Part shown: in pieces, positions 420 through 12,415 of the stretch
Numbering within the stretch: the first letter of the stretch is position 1
How the letters are laid out: each line of letters begins with the position of its first letter
From: Boletus sp. NGJ
Taxonomy: Eukaryota; Basidiomycota; Agaricomycetes; Boletales; Boletaceae
DNA: 64,000 nucleotides
Reading direction: 5' to 3'
NCBI GenBank assembly: GCA_019096195.1
Contig: JAGTXK010000076.1
Coordinates: 248,001 to 312,000 of the forward strand
Program-made: the position numbers and the translations under genes
Notes under the pieces: generated by a model
The model's database searches: none
Told to the model about the DNA's origin: nothing
Seen by the model: only the letters and a program-made list of their open reading frames with translations

Positions 420-1250
420 ATTCTAGAGAAGGCTGTGCTTCTATGCAAGAAGTGGAGTGAGGGGCATGTAGTTGCTCAGAAGAGTTGCATGGGCCTTCCA
501 TAGAATGCTTGTCAAAGATGACATTATGTGAATTGAAGAATGAACATGCACTCAGCAGGCACAAATGAGGCAAGGTCAAGTTTGACTACAGGCATGGTGA
601 GGCATGTGATGTCTGGTCATTTAAATGCCACATCAAGGTGACAGAGGTTGTTTGTTATGGGAATGCACCCTAGAGACTCCCTCTGAAACAAAAGCTCACA
701 TCTTGCAGGGTTCCCCTTGAACTGGATCTCCCAACCTCTATTGATCATGTTGCCGACTGAGAGGAGGTTTGCCACAGCATCAGGGGTATAAAGACAATCA
801 TGAAGATGGATACAGACTGTTCTACCTCTGATGGACAGAGCAGCTATGTAATCCCCATGCCCAGCAGTATGTAGAGCACCATGGTTGGCAGTTTTCATCT
901 TGATACTATCATCAGGAATAAAGGTCCAGAAAAGGCTCCAGTTGCAGATCAAATGGCTAGTTGTGCTGGAGTTGGGGATGGTGCATGTCTCAGTAGCACC
1001 ATCAAGTAGGTGCAACTGCTCAGTATCATAGTGCAAGAGAGATCTTTGAAGTGGTTTGACTTGCATAATGAGACAATGTCTATGAACCCTCAGTGACACT
1101 TTGTGCTGCAATTTCTGATCCTTTCTTAGTCTCACTCTCCCTTCCCTTGCTATTGCCACCATTGTATTGCTTATCCCCTTTGTTCTTTTGCCATGGAGCT
1201 TGACCCTCCATGCTGCTATCCTTCCCATAGAAGTATATTATGTGTACAAA
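420..1250 (-). mobile_element. Ty1/copia retrotransposon fossil (protease to pre-integrase part)
   Basis: The minus strand reads as the middle of a copia-type polyprotein. It covers the end of gag, the retropepsin-like region with the typical downstream block around LHDCLYTPDAVANLLSVG, and the gag-pre-integrase region. Traces of the integrase zinc-finger region continue to the left. No long terminal repeats or reverse transcriptase were found, so only a fragment is present. It is broken, with several breaks, and looks old. The family call rests on recalled copia sequence patterns. Confidence 0.7.
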
Positions 1251-1943: not shown

Positions 1944-1953
1944 GCATGACACT

Positions 1954-2050
1954 CAGTGAAAACTGGGTATGACCCATTAATATCATATATGGGCCCATAT
2001 GGATTTATAATAGTTCATATCATCAGATCTTACATTTTCACACATGTGAT
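1954..2050. repeat. Left inverted terminal region of the large transposon
   Basis: It opens with CAGTGAAAACTGGG, whose arms CAGT/ACTG can form a small hairpin. A perfect 14-base palindrome, ATATGGGCCCATAT, and repeated TCATAT words follow. It pairs with the right end at 10,550-10,645. Repeated subterminal words are typical of transposase-binding regions in CACTA-type and Mutator-type elements; that role is inferred here. Confidence 0.65.
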
Positions 2051-2849
2051 ACAATCCAATCCAATCTTTAATACCCTCAATAAAGGTGCTCAATACACAA
2101 TCTTTTGATATTGTTGTTACTCTGTGTATCGGCCCATTAATGTCTCCAACACACCTCTGTGCAGATCACACATGTATTGTGCATATTATGCACTTCAGCA
2201 CTGCAAATTAAATGCATTATCTCTAGTATGCACTCCTCCAATACTACTACCAATCATAAATCAGAATGTTCTTTCAAAATGCTGCCAGAATCATCTACCA
2301 ACTTGTTGGGGGTGCTACCTAGCACTGGATATGTTCATGTCACAAGCATTGCAATGGTAAACTGACTTTCCAATCAAAAACTATGTTCTACCAGCACTGA
2401 ATGGATGCAAACAAGGATGAATGACACAGGATCAATACAATCAAGAAACTGCCTTCACTAGATGCTGCAAAAGCTTTATTTTCTGCCCCACAAAATCACA
2501 ACAAAGCTGGTTCTGGTACTAGCAGAGCAATTTCTTGAAGTGCACATCATGCTGTCAGTAAAAAAGCCTTGTCTAGGCAAGCTTGTGAAGGTTCTGAATA
2601 CCAGTGCCAAGTCAGAAAAAGAAAGTGTGTGCACTCAAAAGCCAATGACTTGGATGATTCAGAAGTACATAGATTATTTTGCAATTTTTCCTTGTACTTG
2701 TATAGAAGACAAAATTTGGTAGCCCCAACAACCCATTGAATGAGATTCAAGATCCCCAAGTCCTGTGTCTTGTGAACAATTCTCCTCTCCATTGTACTTT
2801 CCAGCATCTTTGACATTGTCTCCTCAGGCAAATCATTCAGAGGACCAGC

Positions 2850-5575
2850 TGGAAGAACCAATAATAGATGCAGGCTGCCAGATATTGATCTTGAAGCCCT
2901 TTCTCAAGCCACAGTCCTCCCAAAACTCTAAGATGCCATGAACCCCATTAACATCATCAGAAATGCTTCACTCAAAGATCCAATTGCAAAGATGACAGGC
3001 CCAATGCTTACTCAGATCCGAGATCCTCCTACTGCTCCCATATGGATTGAAAACCCAGGTGTTAGATGCTCCATCTCAACCTACAATATCTTGCACTTGA
3101 ACACAGTTCTCAAAATACATATCAGCAGATGATTTGTTCCATTTGGGAGAACTTTCTGGAAGCATATGAAATCAAGAACCTCATCTCATTTCCTGGAGTT
3201 GAGAATTTGATTGCTTCATACATTGGGATCAAACCTGTTGAACATGATATGTGTCCAAATTCATGCATTGAATTTACTGGACCTTATTTGGACCTCAAGA
3301 ACTGCCCTATACATGTATGTGGAAAATCATGCTGGAATGAGTCTAGGTGAGACACTATAGGCAGCCATATCAAGGTTCCTGCCAAGACCTTCATAACACT
3401 CCCCCTAGGACCACAAATTCAAGCTCTTTTTCAGGACCCTGTGACCACATGGTTGATGAAATATCTCTATGAATGTTCACAAGACATTCTTGATGAACTT
3501 GAACAGGCCATGAAGGTTGTGGTGCTTGATGATATTGTAATGGGCTGGAATTTCTTAGGAGGTGTTATTGCAGGGGACATCAAACAGCACAACATCATCC
3601 ACATGGCCTCACTCAATGGTGCTCAGCTGCATGAAGACAAAGAGTTAGATTGCTGGCTCTATATCTGGATTGTTCTCAACCTCACCTCAGATCATCAATA
3701 TCACAAGTCCCATGTTCTCCCTGGCAGATTCATTTCTGGGCCAAACAAACCAAAGAAGCTTGATTCATTTATGGTCATTGGCCTTCACCATCTATCTGCC
3801 CTATAGAGGGAAGGGCTCAAGATATGGGACTTGTCTCAAAACCAGGTTTTTAAGTCAGACATCTACTTTTTATTCATGACCACTGACTGCCCTGGGCTTG
3901 TACATTGGGATGGACTTGTTAGACACTGCAGGAAAAATAGCTGCCATTTTTATTGTGGTGTCAAAGGACGACACAAGGATACCTGCTCATATTACTATCT
4001 GGCACTCCTACTACCTAATAATAGCTGCAAAGGGACTAACCATCCAGATATATCCTCAGTTTCCCTTCCCCCTGCTGGTAATCAAAAATATTCTGCTAAC
4101 TTGCTCCACCTTATGTCCACACCAAATCAATGCCAGTTTGAGTTTCGTCAAACTGAAACTGGTATAATAAAACCTCCATTGATTTTTGGTCTCCTTCCCA
4201 CTTGCTCTCTTAGTGTACCCCTTTGCATAACAACTGACATCATGCACTTGGCAGGTAATCTTAGTGACCTTTTTATTTCACTCTGATGTGGAACAATCAA
4301 TTGTACACCAACTGACCACATTGAAACCTGGGATTGGATTGTTTTACATGATGATCTCTGGTGATTGAGCAAGCCAGCTATCATATACCTGGTACATTTG
4401 ATGCAAAGCCCTGCAATATTGCTGAGAAACTAAATATGGACTACAAGACATGGGAATTTCATCTATACACTTTTGGTCTTGCTCCAGCCCTCCTCTCTTC
4501 CCTTCTTCCCAAGTGATATTGGTGCAACTTTTGTGAGCTTGTATGAGGGTTCCAGATTCTCACCCAGCATGCAATCAAATATGAAGAAGTACTTCAAATA
4601 TGGGTACTACTAGCTGCTTGAGAGTGAGAATTCAAGGAATTGTACTACCAACACTGGAATGATTGACTGCATTTTATTCAATCTTATGTATATCAAGTTC
4701 TCCATCTTACCCCTGAGATATTGCAAAAAGAGCCAGGTATCTGTACTGCACAGAAGACTGTCGAGCAGATGATTGGGAACCTTAAACAAAAGATACAACA
4801 ACCATCTAAGTACCTTGTCAACTTTGCAAGGAAAGGCCTTCAACATGCACATGTAAATGCACTCCTTGCAGTGTTACCTGGCCTGGTTGAGTCTCACACT
4901 GTCCATGCATTTGATGCTCTTGACCTCAGCAATGGCTATGTACTCCTTCATAAACATGACAAGGTACCAGTCCTTCCATCTGATGGCACTATGCCAGCCA
5001 TTCTCAAATTTCTTGATCATCCAGCTGGTCCAATTCCTCATATCAGATGGTGGGCACATCTTCAATTATCAAATGGTCAAATCACTTGCAGTGCATGGCA
5101 TGAAAAATTAAAACCACTCAAAACATTGCATGTATCATGCATATTAAAAATGAGTTCTTTTTTTTCATCAATCGTGTACTCATTGTAGTAGTTTACTCTA
5201 GTCAACATGATTATGTTTGGAGAGGCTGTTTACTATGTGAGACTTGTGCTTCAAGATGTGAACAACAATCCCAGCTTTGCAGATGTTGCACTGATCCAAC
5301 CCTTCTCGCCACCTGACCAGAACATACTATGACTCTCTCATATGACTGTACCTTTTTGCTAGACAATGGAAGCAGTTTTAGTTGTGAATGTATGTGATAT
5401 TATTAGTGTCATTGCTATGATATCATACACACTTGGACAAGGACAAGGTATTGAGGAAGGTGAGGAAGTGTTCTATGTAATGGAGAGACCCAGTCTTGCT
5501 GTCTCTCATTTCTTGGGTAGAGAAGGGGCAGGAAATCTTGATGATGACATAGATCCAGATGAAAATGTAGAATAG
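2850..5575 (+). pseudogene. Decayed Plavaka/Tnp2-type transposase
   Basis: Across three forward frames the translation follows, in order, the transposase of agaricomycete Plavaka (CACTA-like, Tnp2) elements as I remember it. Landmarks are HDMCPNSCIEFTGP with a nearby Cys-rich patch (about 3,245), a stretch around DGD/AGDIKQHNIIHMASLNGAQLHEDKE (about 3,560-3,650), LPG..SGPNKPKKLDSF (about 3,720), a DCPGLVHWDGLV block (about 3,890), DIMHLAGNLSDL (about 4,240) and the C-terminal LSNGYVLLHK and NGQ..CSAWHEKLKPL blocks (4,930-5,120). An acidic tail ends near 5,575. It has many stops and frameshifts, so it is dead. Family members are around 900-1,000 residues, so most of the length is represented. 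No introns are needed. The N-terminus is not clear before about 2,930. Confidence 0.8.
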
Positions 5576-6228
5576 CACAGTCAATTGCATCAATTGCATA
5601 CAGAAACAATTCTACACCATGTATTGTACACTGCTTCTCGACCTCCACAGCTCAAGCACTCAACTGAAATGCTTGACATGTCCAAATCTACTTGGAAAAA
5701 GTGTCATGCATAGCTGTAGGCTTCTTGTACTTGCCAGATTGCAAAAGGTATGCAAAGCATGCCATCATAACACTGACCCATAGTTTCTTTGGGGGGACTA
5801 CCCCCCCTGTTGCAGTGATGATCACAACAGATTTAGTCTTAGTGTCACACAATATATACATCTTGAGAATTGATCACAAAGGATGCGTTGGTGGTGACAG
5901 GACCCCATAATTGCAGCCATACACATAGAGAGTGATGGCAGAAAGAGTGACTACCTATAGAAAAACGACAGTAGTGCTGTAAAGAATGTAATGGAAGGCA
6001 GTGGAGATGATAGCATAACATATGAAATGGCAAACTTGAAACTACATCTGCAAGAAAACATGCAAAAGAAGCCAACTAGTCTTTTGCTATGTATATGCAT
6101 TTCATACCATTGGATGAAGTGATGATGATTCTAAACTGTCCAGCATCAGCCTGTCTCTTTCATCCAGAGGATGTAGATGCCAGTGGGTGTATGCTCTCAT
6201 GGTTTGCAATTTGAGAAGGCATCTTGGG
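5576..6228. other. Transposon interior, no clear gene
   Basis: This lies between the transposase C-terminus and the reverse-strand zinc-finger block. Both strands hold only short frames with stops. It may contain the decayed 3' end of the reverse-strand passenger gene. Confidence 0.35.
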
Positions 6229-7107
6229 TCAAGCTGGAACACCAAATTTCTTCTTCTCTAGCACAGTAAGGATGACAGTTCTGATTATGTTCAAAGGGAG
6301 AGGTAATCCCAATAACTTCCCGGGATGTGCGTATTCTAAATGTAGGAGATTCAGGTGTTGCTCCATATTATATCTCCAGACTGCAGGTTTGGCATCAGTA
6401 TCTTTCTCACAATGAGTACAAAGTGTCACCAGTATCTAGAGTAAAATGACTGCAGTCCAAGGAGTGGGCATAGGCTTGACCATCAAGGATATTGAATGTG
6501 TATGGTAGTTCATTTAGTTTGCCATATAAGGTGTGTAGCCAAGGCAAGCTAATCTGGATGTTCAAATCAGGAGCAAGGTCCCACTAGAATGGTAATTAAT
6601 AACAAGAAGGATGGGGTGGTGGAGTATATACAGTTAAGTTGGAGTCAGAATCTGAGTTGGATGCAATGAATGGACTGCAAACATGGCATTCAGTTAAAAC
6701 TTCATAAAAAACTTGTAAGGCTTAACTAACGATGGGAATCAAGATGAGGGATGATTCAGAAAGCATAGGAGAAACAGATGGATGAGGTGTGGATGTGAGG
6801 GAGTCTAACATTGTTGCTATCTGAGAACTAATCGTGTTGAACTTCCTGCATTGTGTGCATACTGTGCTGTACAAGACTTGCAATAATAATGATTGCTGAG
6901 AATAGTGAAATGACTCATAATGGAGAGAGAAACAGAAAGTGAGATGCTGGATTTGACAAAGGCAAGGCAGTGAGGACAGAGAAAAGCATGAAATTTATTG
7001 ATAGGGGAAACAGTGAGAATGCTGTGTTGATACAACATCAAGAATGGAGCAGGAGAGCCTGTGTTGAGAAGATGCAATATTTGTGCTTGCAAGAGTTGGT
7101 TTGACAA
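6229..7107 (-). pseudogene. Passenger gene remnant with C2H2-like zinc finger
   Basis: Minus-strand reading frames show a block CTHCEKD followed by WRYNMEQHLNLLH (6,290-6,425), a C-x2-C ... H-x4-H pattern like a zinc finger. A proline-rich tail LPLPLNIIR follows. A second Cys-rich patch lies upstream near 6,890-6,990. Stops interrupt the frames between them. I recall similar W-x-YNM-x-H proteins as common hypothetical proteins near Plavaka-type elements in agaricomycetes, but I cannot name the family. It lies inside the proposed 8.7-kb element, convergent with the transposase. Its function is unknown. Confidence 0.4.
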
Positions 7108-8104
7108 ATGCTAGATAGACTAGATGGGATGAGGTCTGAGAGCAGTGAGAAAGAGGTCAAGGGAAATAACTTATATATACAGAATCAGAGACTGCCTCAT
7201 GGCTGCCTGCAGATGCCTCAGAATTATGAGGATTGTTTAATGTCTGGGAGAGTGGTGGCAGTGCACTGTCATCACTTACTGTAAGTCACTAGGGCCAAGT
7301 GCTCCAATGCATATGCAGTGTATGTGCAAACTCCATCACACATGTGAATGTATCAAGCAACTTGAGATCAAGCTTACTCAGGTTACTACCAAGTGCAACA
7401 CTCTCAGATATGATAGCTTTACCTAAATTGTACTAATCCCGCACTATTCTCTAGGAATGTAATGAATCAAAAGGGTGGTCCAGTAATTGACCCTTTTTTA
7501 TCTGACCGTCCTACTCAAGAATTGCATCCACATGTTAAGTTTTGGACAGTTCATAACTATGAGGGTTGGCTAGACTCTCCCCAGGCACAGCTAGCTCAGT
7601 ATGGGAAAGTGAGGAGGAGAATGGTGAGCCAGTGTCTGCCCAGAAATTAATGAACATCTGTGCCTGTATGTGGAATGCCTGGTCAGAACTCATCAATATG
7701 AAATGGGCCCCACAAGTTTGGAGGAAGCTGGATGTGACTGGCCAGGAATTCTTTCACTCACACATCGAACAATTGTACCCTCTTTTTAGATGTGCAGTAG
7801 ACCGATGGAAACTTGAGCAGTTGGCATGTACTTTCTATCCCATATGGTGAGCAGCCCACATTGACAAAAATGGGAACTGGATGATCAAGGAGGATAGAAA
7901 GAAGAGAAGATGCAAGGGCAAGGAGAGAGAGGGCTCTCTACCTGTCCTGAAAAAAATAGAAAAGCAGTGGTGAGTTGTAAATACATTGATTGCTTGAGTT
8001 CTAACTACAAAGGTTCTTAGTTTCTGGATTATGCAAATCTGTCAAAGACTCCAAATCTCTTCTTCAGCCTCCTGTTACCATGACTACAGCAACACCATAC
8101 AAAA

Positions 8105-8411
8105 GATCAACAAGTCAGTCACACCCGAGCCTGAGCTGACCACAACAAACAATAAGAATATTTCAACCTCTGTCAACCCAACTCCATCACAACACAGCAA
8201 CACCACACAGGAGATCAACAAGTCAGTCACACCCAAGCCTGAGCTGACCACAATAAACAATAAGAATATTTCGACCTCTGTCAATCTGTCTCCATCATAG
8301 GACAACAATACTGTGCAGAAGATCAACAAGTCAGTCACACCCAAGCCCAAGCTAAATGAAACACTTGCAGAACAGTCAAAGAAAAGTATTTTCAAGCCCT
8401 TCAATCCAATG
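8105..8411 (+). repeat. 108-bp tandem repeat (three units, last one partial)
   Basis: The word GATCAACAAGTCAGTCACACC recurs in near-identical form starting at 8,105, 8,213 and 8,321, giving an exact period of 108 bases. The period is 36 codons, so the repeat keeps frame and encodes INKSVTP.PEL and KNISTSVN blocks. The third unit diverges into unique sequence and is cut by the Tc1 insertion. Confidence 0.85.
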
Positions 8412-8413
8412 TA

Positions 8414-8627
8414 CAGTGGCTCAAAAAACTGTCCGCATGTTTGGTCATTTTTCACTAAACGCATTATTCCCCAATAACTCCTAACCCTTACCCTAACATA
8501 TAGGCGTATGAAATAAAGCACTGACCCTTGGCTTTCTATCCATTAAGGCTTTAAGACATATGAATAAGAATTGATGAACTGGCAGCCATTTCAAAACAAT
8601 GACTCATTCGGACAGTTTTTTGACTCT
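8414..8627. repeat. Left terminal inverted repeat of the Tc1 element
   Basis: The repeat is 214 bp. Its outer end (TCAAAAAACTGTCCGCATG) and inner end (the reverse complement of TCAAAAAACTGTCCGAATG) carry the same motif in opposite orientation, so the arm is itself bounded by a short inverted repeat. A CCTAACCCTTACCCTAAC run resembling the telomere repeat lies at about 8,480-8,497. Confidence 0.9.
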
Positions 8628-8775
8628 AAGTTTTGATTACATATATTGGACCCTAGCATGCTGTAATATGATTACATACATTTGGTAAGGCTTCTATTAT
8701 GTCACCATTATGTAACTGAGTGTCAGACAACATATATAAACCCCATCATTCCATGTTTATTTTCCCACCATTGCC

Positions 8776-9792
8776 ATGAAACCCATTTCCATCTCTCAAA
8801 GAAACAATATCATCTCTCTCTCCTCTCATGGGCTTTCCTCTAGGAAAATCTCTGCCCAAACTGGCCTAGGGAAGTCTACAGTATGCCAAGTGCTTCAGGA
8901 ACTCCAGCCAGAGAAGACTAGGCTTCTTGGTGGCTGTCCTTCCAAGCTTACCTCTACCAACAAAAGAGCTATTGTTCAGCAAATTATTACTGGCAAGGCC
9001 AGGAATGCTGTTCATGCTGCCCAATACATCAATACCATTATTGATACCCCTGTCTGTCCTCAGACTGTTAGAAATACTCTCAAGGAAGCCTCCTTAAAGG
9101 CTGTGGTAAAGAAGAAAAAGCCACTGCTTTCTAGTGGTCACAAGAAAAGAAGATTAGCCTTTGCTCTCAAGTACCAGCATTGGACTGTGGAGGACTGGAA
9201 GAGAGTTATATGGTCAGATGAGACCAAGATCAATAGGATTGGGTCAGATGGGCAAGAGTATGTGTGGAAAAAGAAAGGAGAGGGGCTAATTGCTAGAGAG
9301 GTCCAAGGCACAGTCAAGTTTGGAGGAGGTTCACTGATGGTATGGGGCTGCATAGGGTGGAATGGAGTGGGGATTTTGAGTGAGGTGGAGGGGAGAATGG
9401 ATGCTGAACAGTATGTGGCCATATTGGAGCAGGGGTTGCTGCAAAGCATGGAGGAATCTGGAATTCCAGAAGATGACATTATCTTTCAACAAGATAATGA
9501 TCCCAAGCATACCTCTAAAAGAGCCCAAAGATGGTTTGAAGAGCAAGGAATCAAGCTTCTGGACTGGCCTGCACAATCTCCAGACCTTAATCCCATTGAA
9601 CATACTTGGAATCACCTCAAGAGATGCCTCTCAGGTTATGAAAATGCTTCTACAGGTGTTCATCAATTGTGGGAAAGAGTAGTGGAGCAGTGGGGAAAGA
9701 TTGATGAGGAACAGTGTCAGAAATGGATAGAAAGTATGCCTAGAAGGATTGAAGCAGTTATCAAGGCCAAAGGAGCTCATACCAAGTACTAG
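8776..9792 (+). CDS. Tc1/mariner transposase, DD34E, intact 338 residues
   Basis: This cut-and-paste transposase would cut at the element's inverted ends and insert at TA. Residues 1-60 form a helix-turn-helix (SQRNNIISLSSHGLSSRKI) and a second DNA-binding helix set follows to about 115. The catalytic triad is visible: D148 in WSDETKIN, D240 in QQDNDPKH and E275 in SPDLNPIEH, with 34 residues between the last two (DD34E, as in Tc1). A basic KKKK and GHKKRR patch at 112-126 may serve as nuclear localisation signal. Length is normal for Tc1 (about 340). There are no stops or introns. The start is the first Met after the left repeat. GC content and codon use are more AT-rich than the host genes beyond 10.8 kb. 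Whether it is active cannot be told from sequence. Confidence 0.95.
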   Translation: MKPISISQRNNIISLSSHGLSSRKISAQTGLGKSTVCQVLQELQPEKTRLLGGCPSKLTSTNKRAIVQQIITGKARNAVHAAQYINTIIDTPVCPQTVRNTLKEASLKAVVKKKKPLLSSGHKKRRLAFALKYQHWTVEDWKRVIWSDETKINRIGSDGQEYVWKKKGEGLIAREVQGTVKFGGGSLMVWGCIGWNGVGILSEVEGRMDAEQYVAILEQGLLQSMEESGIPEDDIIFQQDNDPKHTSKRAQRWFEEQGIKLLDWPAQSPDLNPIEHTWNHLKRCLSGYENASTGVHQLWERVVEQWGKIDEEQCQKWIESMPRRIEAVIKAKGAHTKY

Positions 9793-9808
9793 ATACCTAG
9801 ATAAATTT

Positions 9809-10022
9809 AGAGTCAAAAAACTGTCCGAATGAGTCATTGTTTTGAAATGGCTGCCAGTTCATCAATTCTTATTCATATGTCTTAAAACCTTGGTGGATAG
9901 AATGCCAAGGGTCAGTGCTTCATTTCATACACCTATATGTTAGGGTAAGGGTTAGGGGTTATTGGGGAATAACACGTTTAGTGAAAAATGACCAAACATG
10001 CGGACAGTTTTTTGAGCCACTG
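9809..10022. repeat. Right terminal inverted repeat of the Tc1 element
   Basis: This is the inverted partner of 8,414-8,627, with the same outer and inner TCAAAAAACTGTCCG motifs and a TTAGGGTAAGGGTTAGGG run at about 9,940-9,957. It differs from the left arm at about nine positions. Confidence 0.9.
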
Positions 10023-10549
10023 TAAGTAACTCATCTTCTGTGTTTCAATACTAACTCAATATTAGGAATGCCCTCACCAATGCTGCCACCCAACTTGACA
10101 TCACCCTTCCACCAACCAGTAGCTCTGATGTAGTTTTTCCCCCAGCCAATTCCAATGCCTCCAAGTCCAATACCAGCCAGACAAATACAGCAAATACTCC
10201 CAAAGCAGTTTCATCAAAGAGAATCACAAAAATGCACCCTAGCCCTGCTCAAAATGGAAAGTAAATTATGTAACATTCACATACTGTTAATTTTTGCTAA
10301 GTGAGATATCAGGAACTTGTGTGGGCACCAATGGCTCAGAGCATTCAATGATACAAACAAAGGAACAACAGCCGAGTTCAAAAAGTACGACAATGGGTTA
10401 AGCAAGGGACAGTGAGAGGTAAGTCAAATCAGTACATTTGATCATTAGCTAATATAGTCATCCAGTTATATGATAAAGAAGTCAAGGAACTAGTAAGTAA
10501 AACATGCTTTCATAGCACCTGGCTGATAATCAAAAATAAGATATAATTT

Positions 10550-10645
10550 CCATTTTATAGGGATGATAGCATGAGATATGACATCTATATGACCTGCATA
10601 CTGGAGCACATATGACCCTAATGGGTTATACCCAGTTTTCACTGG
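10550..10645. repeat. Right inverted terminal region of the large transposon
   Basis: Read inward on the minus strand it begins CCAGTGAAAACTGGGTATAAC and then shows GTCATAT at three places about 20-30 bases apart. The outer CCCAGT/ACTGGG arms form a 6-bp hairpin. It matches the left end at 1,954-2,050, best over the first 26 bases. Confidence 0.65.
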
Positions 10646-10844
10646 GCATGACACTATATGTTTATTACTAATATGTAATGTAGATGGTGACACTCAGGTG
10701 ATGGGTCTGTAAGGCCATCGGAGTTTGAAAAAAGTGCTGCCTGAAGTGTGTGCATGAACATTTCAACAATGTTGTAATATGCATCTATACAGCAACATCC
10801 AGTGGAATCGCATTGGCATTACATATCATCATTCCAATACATCC

Positions 10845-11695
10845 TTAGGAGAACGTAAATGTCTTGGGTTCAGTGATTCGGACATCCACAAATTCCTCCG
10901 TCCCCCAGTACTGTTTCACCCTCTCATCTGCGGTCACTTTTGCATAATGAGCAAAAATGTGGGGGTATTGTGCGCGTTCAGCAGATCCGAGCGACACACG
11001 CGCAGCAGCAAAAATTACGCCAGCCAGAACAAAATCGGCGAGAGTCAAAGTGTCCAATGCCACGTATCCAGTCGGATGCACCGCAAGATGCGACTCGAGG
11101 TGGGCGAGGCCGCGAACAAGGCGCTCTGCATTTTTATCAAGAGTCTGTGACGAGCACTTTAGATATCTGACCAGCATCAGCAGTGATTTTAGTCCATACC
11201 TCGAGATTGAAAGGTCCATAGAAGCCGTAGATCAGACCCGTCATATTCTGAGTTGGTGCGCTGATCTCGTGTTCAGCAAAGTGCACCCATTGATCGACAA
11301 TTGCGACTTCGCGCGCAGTGGATCCTAACAGGTTAACTTTGGTCCCGATGCTGCTCACTGGAACAGGTAAGTCCATGATGATCGTCAACTGAACAAATTC
11401 TGAAACCACTCACAATAGCGAGCAATGGTAGTACCCTCGATCAACTTCAATCCATCCGTTCCCTCGAAGGCAGGGATCTTTCCGTAGGAAAACTTGGCCG
11501 TAAACTCCGGAGGCTTGTTCGTGAACGACAACCACTCAGGTTGTTCGAGCTCAAATTCATTAACGGCTGCAACACTGAGTATCTGCAGTGAAACAATAAA
11601 GTTAGCTTCGGCCTGAAGACGCAGGTCAGTCATGAACGTACGACTTTGGACTGACGCTGGCGAACGGAGCCCCAGAGAGTACCGACAGGCGTCAT
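10845..11695 (-). CDS. Glutathione S-transferase, eEF1B-gamma type, single domain
   Basis: This thioredoxin-fold plus helical GST is of the type found at the N-terminus of elongation factor 1B-gamma, and likely conjugates or binds glutathione in the cytosol. Four exons by eye (11,695-11,642; 11,582-11,414; 11,357-11,200; 11,144-10,845) join in frame to 226 residues. Exon 1 starts MTPVGTLWGSVRQRQSKV, the usual family start. Exon 2 has PEFTAKFSYGKIPAFEG and LIEGTTIARY, which form the glutathione site. Exon 3 has NLLGSTAREVAIVDQWVHFA. The last exon ends TEPKTFTFS at the stop. The separate C-terminal EF1G domain found in true eEF1B-gamma is absent, so this is a stand-alone GST. It is divergent from the aldo/keto reductase across about 720 bp. 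Confidence 0.85.
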
Positions 11696-12415
11696 TTCAC
11701 TGTGTGTATGTAGAAGTTGTGCTAAACAATCAGATGATGAGGGTCACTGGTAACCAGGTCCCAGACGGTCCCAGATCTTATACCTTCGTGCATTGACTAA
11801 TAGCGGCTCTCTCTGCGCCGGTAAACCTGTACCTGAGAAAAAGAAGTATGGCACAGTCAGCAATCAGTAATCCAGGGCACCTCCGAGTCATCGTATTCTA
11901 TACCGGAGTTCGTCGCCTTACCACTGGCAGCTGAGAGTATTGGCACGTTAAGGCAACCGTAATGTGATCGACCCTACGACGTAGCGAAGCCGGTGAGTCA
12001 ACCCATCTCATTACCAAGCTGCGACTCGCGTAATTGTTTCTGCTGACTGAGTGCATTAATAATGTCGAAGCTGCGAGCTGAATCACCACAGCTTCGCGGC
12101 GCATCATGATGATCAACCATGTGCTCGCTACAAATGACTCTAAGTTGAACCCTGCTGCGCATTGCGGCCCGTCAGGGGGTTCACAAGGCATGAAGGAGTC
12201 ATGGCATTCATGTTGTGCAACATGATTATACAGCCAGTAGTACATATATCTGCGCGGTTGATGAGTGGATACGGGTAAACACATATGACAAAGCACCAAG
12301 ATCGTGACTGGCCAACTTGAAACAGATTGCTCGACGACCTAAAATTACTCCTCGCCGAGTGCCGCTTCATAAATACTAGTGAGGACACTTGAGTGAACCA
12401 TCGTGAAATCAAACA
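11696..12415. promoter_or_regulatory. Divergent promoter region between GST and aldo/keto reductase
   Basis: This lies between two genes that start away from each other, so it should hold both promoters. The minus-strand frames here match nothing I know. No defined factor site was recognised. Confidence 0.4.

Follow-up and report, generated by a model that had tools for sequence, protein, structure and literature searches.

A dead tnp2-type DNA transposon in Boletus sp. NGJ, with a probable 7-bp target duplication and a regular second gene

How does a transposon with a tnp2-type transposase gene come to lie between target repeats that appear longer than those given for its kind? The question is raised by an 8,695-bp element within a 64,000-bp stretch of the Boletus sp. 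NGJ genome, hereafter the window (C50:248001-312000), which we analysed together with the rest of the assembly (32.8 Mb, 141 contigs, one genome). Our answer, which we hold with good confidence, is that this copy is dead and belongs to a family of cut-and-paste DNA transposons, tnp2 (CACTA/EnSpm) in type, that make a 7-bp duplication; its parent carried two genes in the same direction. This answer starts from features that can be seen directly, namely the inverted ends, the 7-bp repeat in five insertions, the uninserted target at two sites, the gene layout and the transposase signature. The outer limits of the element in window coordinates are as follows.

1952-10646 (+): whole outer element, 8,695 bp, about 1.6 kb of which is a nested Tc1/mariner
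1952-1977 (+): left terminal inverted repeat, CTCAGTGAAAACTGGGTATGACCCAT
10621-10646 (-): right terminal inverted repeat, CCCAGTGAAAACTGGGTATAACCCAT on the minus strand
1945-1951 (no strand): left 7-bp target duplication, CATGACA
10647-10653 (no strand): right 7-bp target duplication, CATGACA

An earlier sequence-only reading had described matching inverted ends about 8.7 kb apart, and these were confirmed: counted from 1954 and 10644, they are identical at 25 of 26 bases, and at 39 of 48 (81%) over a longer span. Within the window, the 19-base end motif, searched at up to 3 mismatches, finds these two sites alone, against a mean of 0.01 in shuffled sequence. A genome search with the end motif gave 40 pattern hits, of which those in paired elements and the partnerless sites given below were inspected, and yielded five elements with both ends, whose coordinates are exact to within 1-2 bases: the window element, C48:62799-69796, C113:21613-35268, C133:167361-174477 and C117:76607-99368. 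CCYAGTG is exact at seven of the ten ends of these elements. Of the 40 hits, 17 have the sequence CAGTGAGAACTGGGAAA and seem to represent a repeat of their own.

The sequence-only reading had also placed GCATGACACT directly outside both ends and taken the duplication to be 9-10 bp. The word is indeed present on both sides, although on the right an extra G precedes the matching end. To read the duplication we considered all lengths from 2 to 12 and all end offsets from 0 to 5, for the five insertions together. The best joint fit is 7 bp, separated from CAGTG/TAGTG by two bases on either side, with 34 of 35 bases agreeing (7, 6, 7, 7 and 7 for the window, C48, C113, C133 and C117) and a score of 42.3; shuffled flanks reached at most 5.8 (300 sets) and flanks swapped left for right between elements at most 8.6, and the same fit still wins, at 33.1, when the window is excluded. 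The target words vary (CATGACA, GATCATG/GATCATA, CTTGAGA, AGTAAGC, GGTGACA), and because they differ among insertions the repeats are not element sequence. The window word looks longer because a G in the flank happens to equal the element's last base, and a C or CT its first bases. On this joint reading of five insertions the window duplication is best described as 7 bp, CATGACA; the figure of 9-10 bp gives way, as the other four insertions stop at 7, while the earlier suspicion that the duplication exceeds what a tnp2-type element should make is upheld, 7 bp standing against a stated 2-5 bp.

The site of insertion can be seen without the element, in copies of the dispersed repeat whose two parts flank it in the window:

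1229-1951 (no strand): left part of the target repeat, from flank alignment
10654-10701 (no strand): right part of the target repeat, from flank alignment

Two insert-free copies of this flanking repeat, C50:239405-239504 and C35:23469-23568, carry GCATGACAC once each and are about 90% identical to the joined window flanks across some 770 bases. Since the left and right flanks meet in two other repeat copies, the insertion in the window is real. These are paralogous copies within the same genome rather than alleles of this locus in another strain, and in them the target word resolves to a single copy; with the matching ends, they bear out the view of the element as a single inserted unit. The base after GCATGACAC is C, not T, in both. 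The empty site reads AAG-CATGACA-CC and the right side of the filled site CATGACA-CT, so that the empty sites fit 7, 8 or 9 bp equally. Adjoining the target repeat is a copia-like Pol_BBD frame (window 617-1237, minus strand; 38.1 bits, above its cut-off).

The class of the element is carried by its transposase gene.

2776-5329 (+): tnp2-type transposase gene in decay, matching best at 3468-4355 and 4361-4864

Matches to PF02992, the transposase family tnp2 (cut-off 28.6 bits), number 33 genome-wide and fall within all five elements, at 40.6 bits in C117, 36.2 in C133, 29.3 in C48 and 26.1 each in the window and C113, these last two being below the cut-off and the other three above it. Compared directly with PF02992, the C133 copy scored 35.0 bits, again above the cut-off, and PF02992 matches 11 of 26 alignment members at E 0.01. 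Of 13 family rows, 10 have the first D and 10 the second; the two C occur together in 12, with three residues between them (C-x3-C) in most rows, the IMHL histidine in 11 and the pair of HxxxH histidines in 10. Twelve rows extend as far as the E, and each of them has it. Two further tnp2 loci in the genome are similar at E 2e-16 and 5e-14, and the residue pattern fits both. The window copy has a stop at 3804-3806 and a frame change near 4356-4361, an N at the position of the first catalytic D (as in the C35 copy) and a Y for one H. Among the single window frames tested, none rises above a Pfam cut-off besides the nested Tc1 and the copia-like flank frame. Sequence searches of the PDB gave best E values of 1.1 and 0.71, and plasmid records and IMG/VR gave no match. 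The transposase sequence places the element with CACTA/EnSpm, in the CMCT clade. Of the earlier label Plavaka/Tnp2, the tnp2 half is thus supported by PF02992 and by the D/D/E pattern with its C and H residues, and the Plavaka half is not: PF18759 (Plavaka) has at least 131 matches genome-wide, in a scan that scored 123 of 188 candidates, with none inside the five elements among the matches listed, and comparison of the family profile with 17 PF18759 stretches returned a probability of 1%. Plavaka identity was rejected on these grounds.

Downstream of the transposase, on the same strand, lie the remains of a second gene.

7241-7970 (+): decayed second gene, conserved core
8086-8353 (+): direct repeats of 108 bp, assigned by inference to the second gene as its probable low-complexity tail
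10305-10412 (+): coding-like patch past the Tc1 insertion, with conservation in C48 and C113

A search for relatives of the second gene gave 14 matches, spread over 12 loci. At 11 loci they lie downstream of a transposase of this family, on the same strand and within about 6 kb; the twelfth sits at a contig end. This association at 11 of 12 loci makes the second gene a fixed part of the element. Seen from the transposase, it is present at 11 of 15 family loci, a count that omits two distant loci (C27:111040 and C133:311699), and no match was found at C35, C64, C79 and C7; the end of contig C35 still carries DNA from the second-gene region. The 244-residue second-gene frame of C133 has nothing above a Pfam cut-off. 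The second protein has a predicted helical core. Its AlphaFold model has a mean predicted local distance difference test score (pLDDT) of 58.8, better at residues of about 100-190; a Foldseek search of the model against the PDB listed 32 matches, none at E 0.001 or below (best 0.89). The repeat-bearing gene of the sequence-only reading is probably the low-complexity tail of this second gene, interrupted by the Tc1: it is element-borne, as that reading held, yet a regular partner and not cargo. A chimera with passenger genes was accordingly rejected, the transposase and second gene being co-linear in relatives. The same reading had proposed a reverse-strand zinc-finger-like gene, which was likewise set aside; it has weak Pfam matches only, at E 0.0092 and 0.065, with no cut-off reached, and where the reverse strand of the window matches relatives, the matching stretches lie antisense to the pair of forward genes. 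As a separate observation, C48 and C113 share a reverse-strand stretch of 21 residues, VK.(S/T)IPLKH..D(S/T)Y.F (E 9e-5 and 7e-4; L015:4250-4522, minus, and C48:65352-65606, plus), located between the two forward genes; neither the window nor C133 has a match to it.

The length of the duplication could be read in two other ways. The second-best joint fit, 6 bp with unequal ends, agrees at all 30 of 30 bases across the five insertions and scores 39.4 against 42.3; a real duplication of 6 bp would nonetheless require two ends unequal by one base and would discard a seventh base that is identical in four of the five insertions, and we consider it very unlikely. A Plavaka-related or chimeric element with a 9-10 bp duplication takes its appeal from the window alone, which gives a 9-bp word if one terminal base per side is allowed and 10 bp if the ends may be unequal. 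Such an element is highly improbable in view of the four other insertions, where nothing extends past 7, of the PF18759 results given above, both the matches listed and the profile comparison, and of the co-linearity of the genes across relatives. A different kind of alternative accepts the 7 bp and assigns the ends to a different transposase, such as one of the Kyakuja or hAT7 type, with the tnp2 genes as passengers. Kyakuja and hAT7 are both reported with 7-bp duplications, but Kyakuja is reported without the inverted ends that are present here (PMC12730594, here and below in its available portion). Moreover, a tnp2-family match occurs in five of the five elements with both ends, and in the part of the window, C133, C113 and C48 frames that was scanned the nested Tc1 is the only other transposase above a Pfam cut-off. 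We regard the passenger arrangement as very unlikely.

Several observations weigh against our own reading of a tnp2-type element with a 7-bp duplication. The evidence consists of one genome and five insertions of one tnp2 lineage, the C48 duplication agrees at only 6 of 7 bases, and the 6-bp fit lies close behind in score. Three of the ten ends deviate from CCYAGTG by one base (CTCAGTG at the left end in the window, TCCAGTG at one C117 end and CCTAGTA at the right end of C133). End-like sites with no partner in the stretch examined occur at C79:413178, C35:47940, C133:397703 and C97:501529; the C35 site has a twin at C50:223745 with the same flank, and the C97 site repeats the end of C113. Upstream of the C8 and C16 transposases no left end turned up, the C117 ends span 22.7 kb with the inside read only in minor part, and AlphaFold modelled the transposase too poorly to be of use (mean pLDDT 39.3).

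Under the tnp2-type reading, the transposase would recognise the CCYAGTG ends and excise the element, the ends would be joined to both strands of the target at positions 7 bases apart, and filling of the gaps by repair would leave the 7-bp repeat. In En/Spm, TnpA helps TnpD. The second protein may assist transposition here, perhaps in the manner of TnpA with TnpD. The window copy inserted in a dispersed repeat and subsequently decayed, and a Tc1/mariner later landed close to the end of the second gene. This nested element had been overlooked in the first reading.

8414-10022 (+): nested Tc1/mariner, inverted repeats of about 220 bp (95%), with TA at 8412-8413 and 10023-10024
8740-9792 (+): nested Tc1 transposase open frame, 350 residues stop to stop; first ATG 8776

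Its TA target, inverted ends, domains (DDE_3 and HTH_Tnp_Tc3_2) and D34E spacing, the last judged by eye, are those of Tc1/mariner, and nothing notable differs. C97 carries three copies of it at 97.0-97.9% identity, and its insertion may be recent. The outer element is dead in the window, because of the stop at 3804, the frame changes, the replacement of the first D by N, further decay and the Tc1 insertion; its genes had been called decayed, and both the transposase and the second gene are in fact degraded. The closest copy of the window family, in C35, is 92-94% identical and has lost one end, the other running off the contig. Other features noted in passing are reverse-strand frames within the C113 element (C113:23231-28287) that resemble a nested retroelement by eye, two contig ends (C97:501282-502212 and C113:34589-35512) that are 95.7% alike and share one insertion end, representing either a duplicated region or overlapping contigs, and, to the right of the window element, minus-strand frames at 10845-11696 that, by eye, resemble the N-terminal portion of elongation factor 1-gamma.

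We lean slightly towards a separate fungal CMCT lineage in which a tnp2 transposase with a fixed partner transfers strands with a 7-base stagger. If so, the stagger would exceed that of any CMCT lineage named in the available portion of PMC12730594, and it would be an evolvable trait of the transposase fold rather than a fixed mark of the superfamily, able to shift within one transposase clade that also includes Transib and RAG1. Duplication length serves to assign transposons to superfamilies; sorted in this way, a tnp2 element with a 7-bp duplication would wrongly end up with hAT7, Kyakuja or Mutator. The fixed second gene provides a handle on the partner protein in fungal CACTA-type elements.

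En/Spm has a two-gene layout, which the layout here resembles. Tandem open reading frames are described for Spm in the available part of PMC1636069. With the CACTA/EnSpm elements of the CMCT clade, the present element shares a PF02992 transposase, a D/D/E pattern with two C and three H, and inverted ends. It departs from the CMCT lineages, as the accessible text of PMC12730594 describes them, in its duplication (7 bp, 6 at least, against 2-5 bp), in its ends (CC..GG against mostly CA..TG or CACTA) and in the spacing of its two C, which is C-x3-C in most rows against the C(2)C that, together with D, D, E, two C and three H, marks the clade. The animal TRC elements (SmTRC1 and relatives) likewise have PF02992 and, like ours, CC-starting ends, beginning CCC (CCCAGTCAAC in Aedes, CCCTAGTAG.. 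in Tribolium), whereas the Tribolium and Aedes ends are flanked by 2-bp direct repeats (PMC1636069, same portion).

PlavakaA and PlavakaB are fungal, distant relatives inside the CMCT clade, with duplications of 2 bp and 2-3 bp, respectively, and ends TGT..ACA or CATCA..TGATG (PMC12730594). Unlike them, the element here has a 7-bp duplication and CCYAGTG ends, and no listed PF18759 match falls within the five elements. Mutator elements make 9-11 bp duplications and encode a MULE transposase; here the duplication is 7 bp and the frames scanned contain no MULE domain. Kyakuja, of the KDZ group, resembles our element in being fungal and in its 7 bp and differs in its ends, inverted here; no match to its transposase turned up in the part of the frames scanned, in which no search was aimed at it. 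The hAT7 elements, which encode a hAT transposase, are likewise fungal with a 7-bp duplication; no hAT domain turned up in the part of the frames scanned. A literature search, with Repbase and paper supplements outside its scope, turned up in its listings no earlier 7-bp duplication of a CACTA-type element. Because its duplication length and end bases fall outside the stated CACTA definition and its transposase falls inside it, we place the element as a variant of the known CACTA kind.

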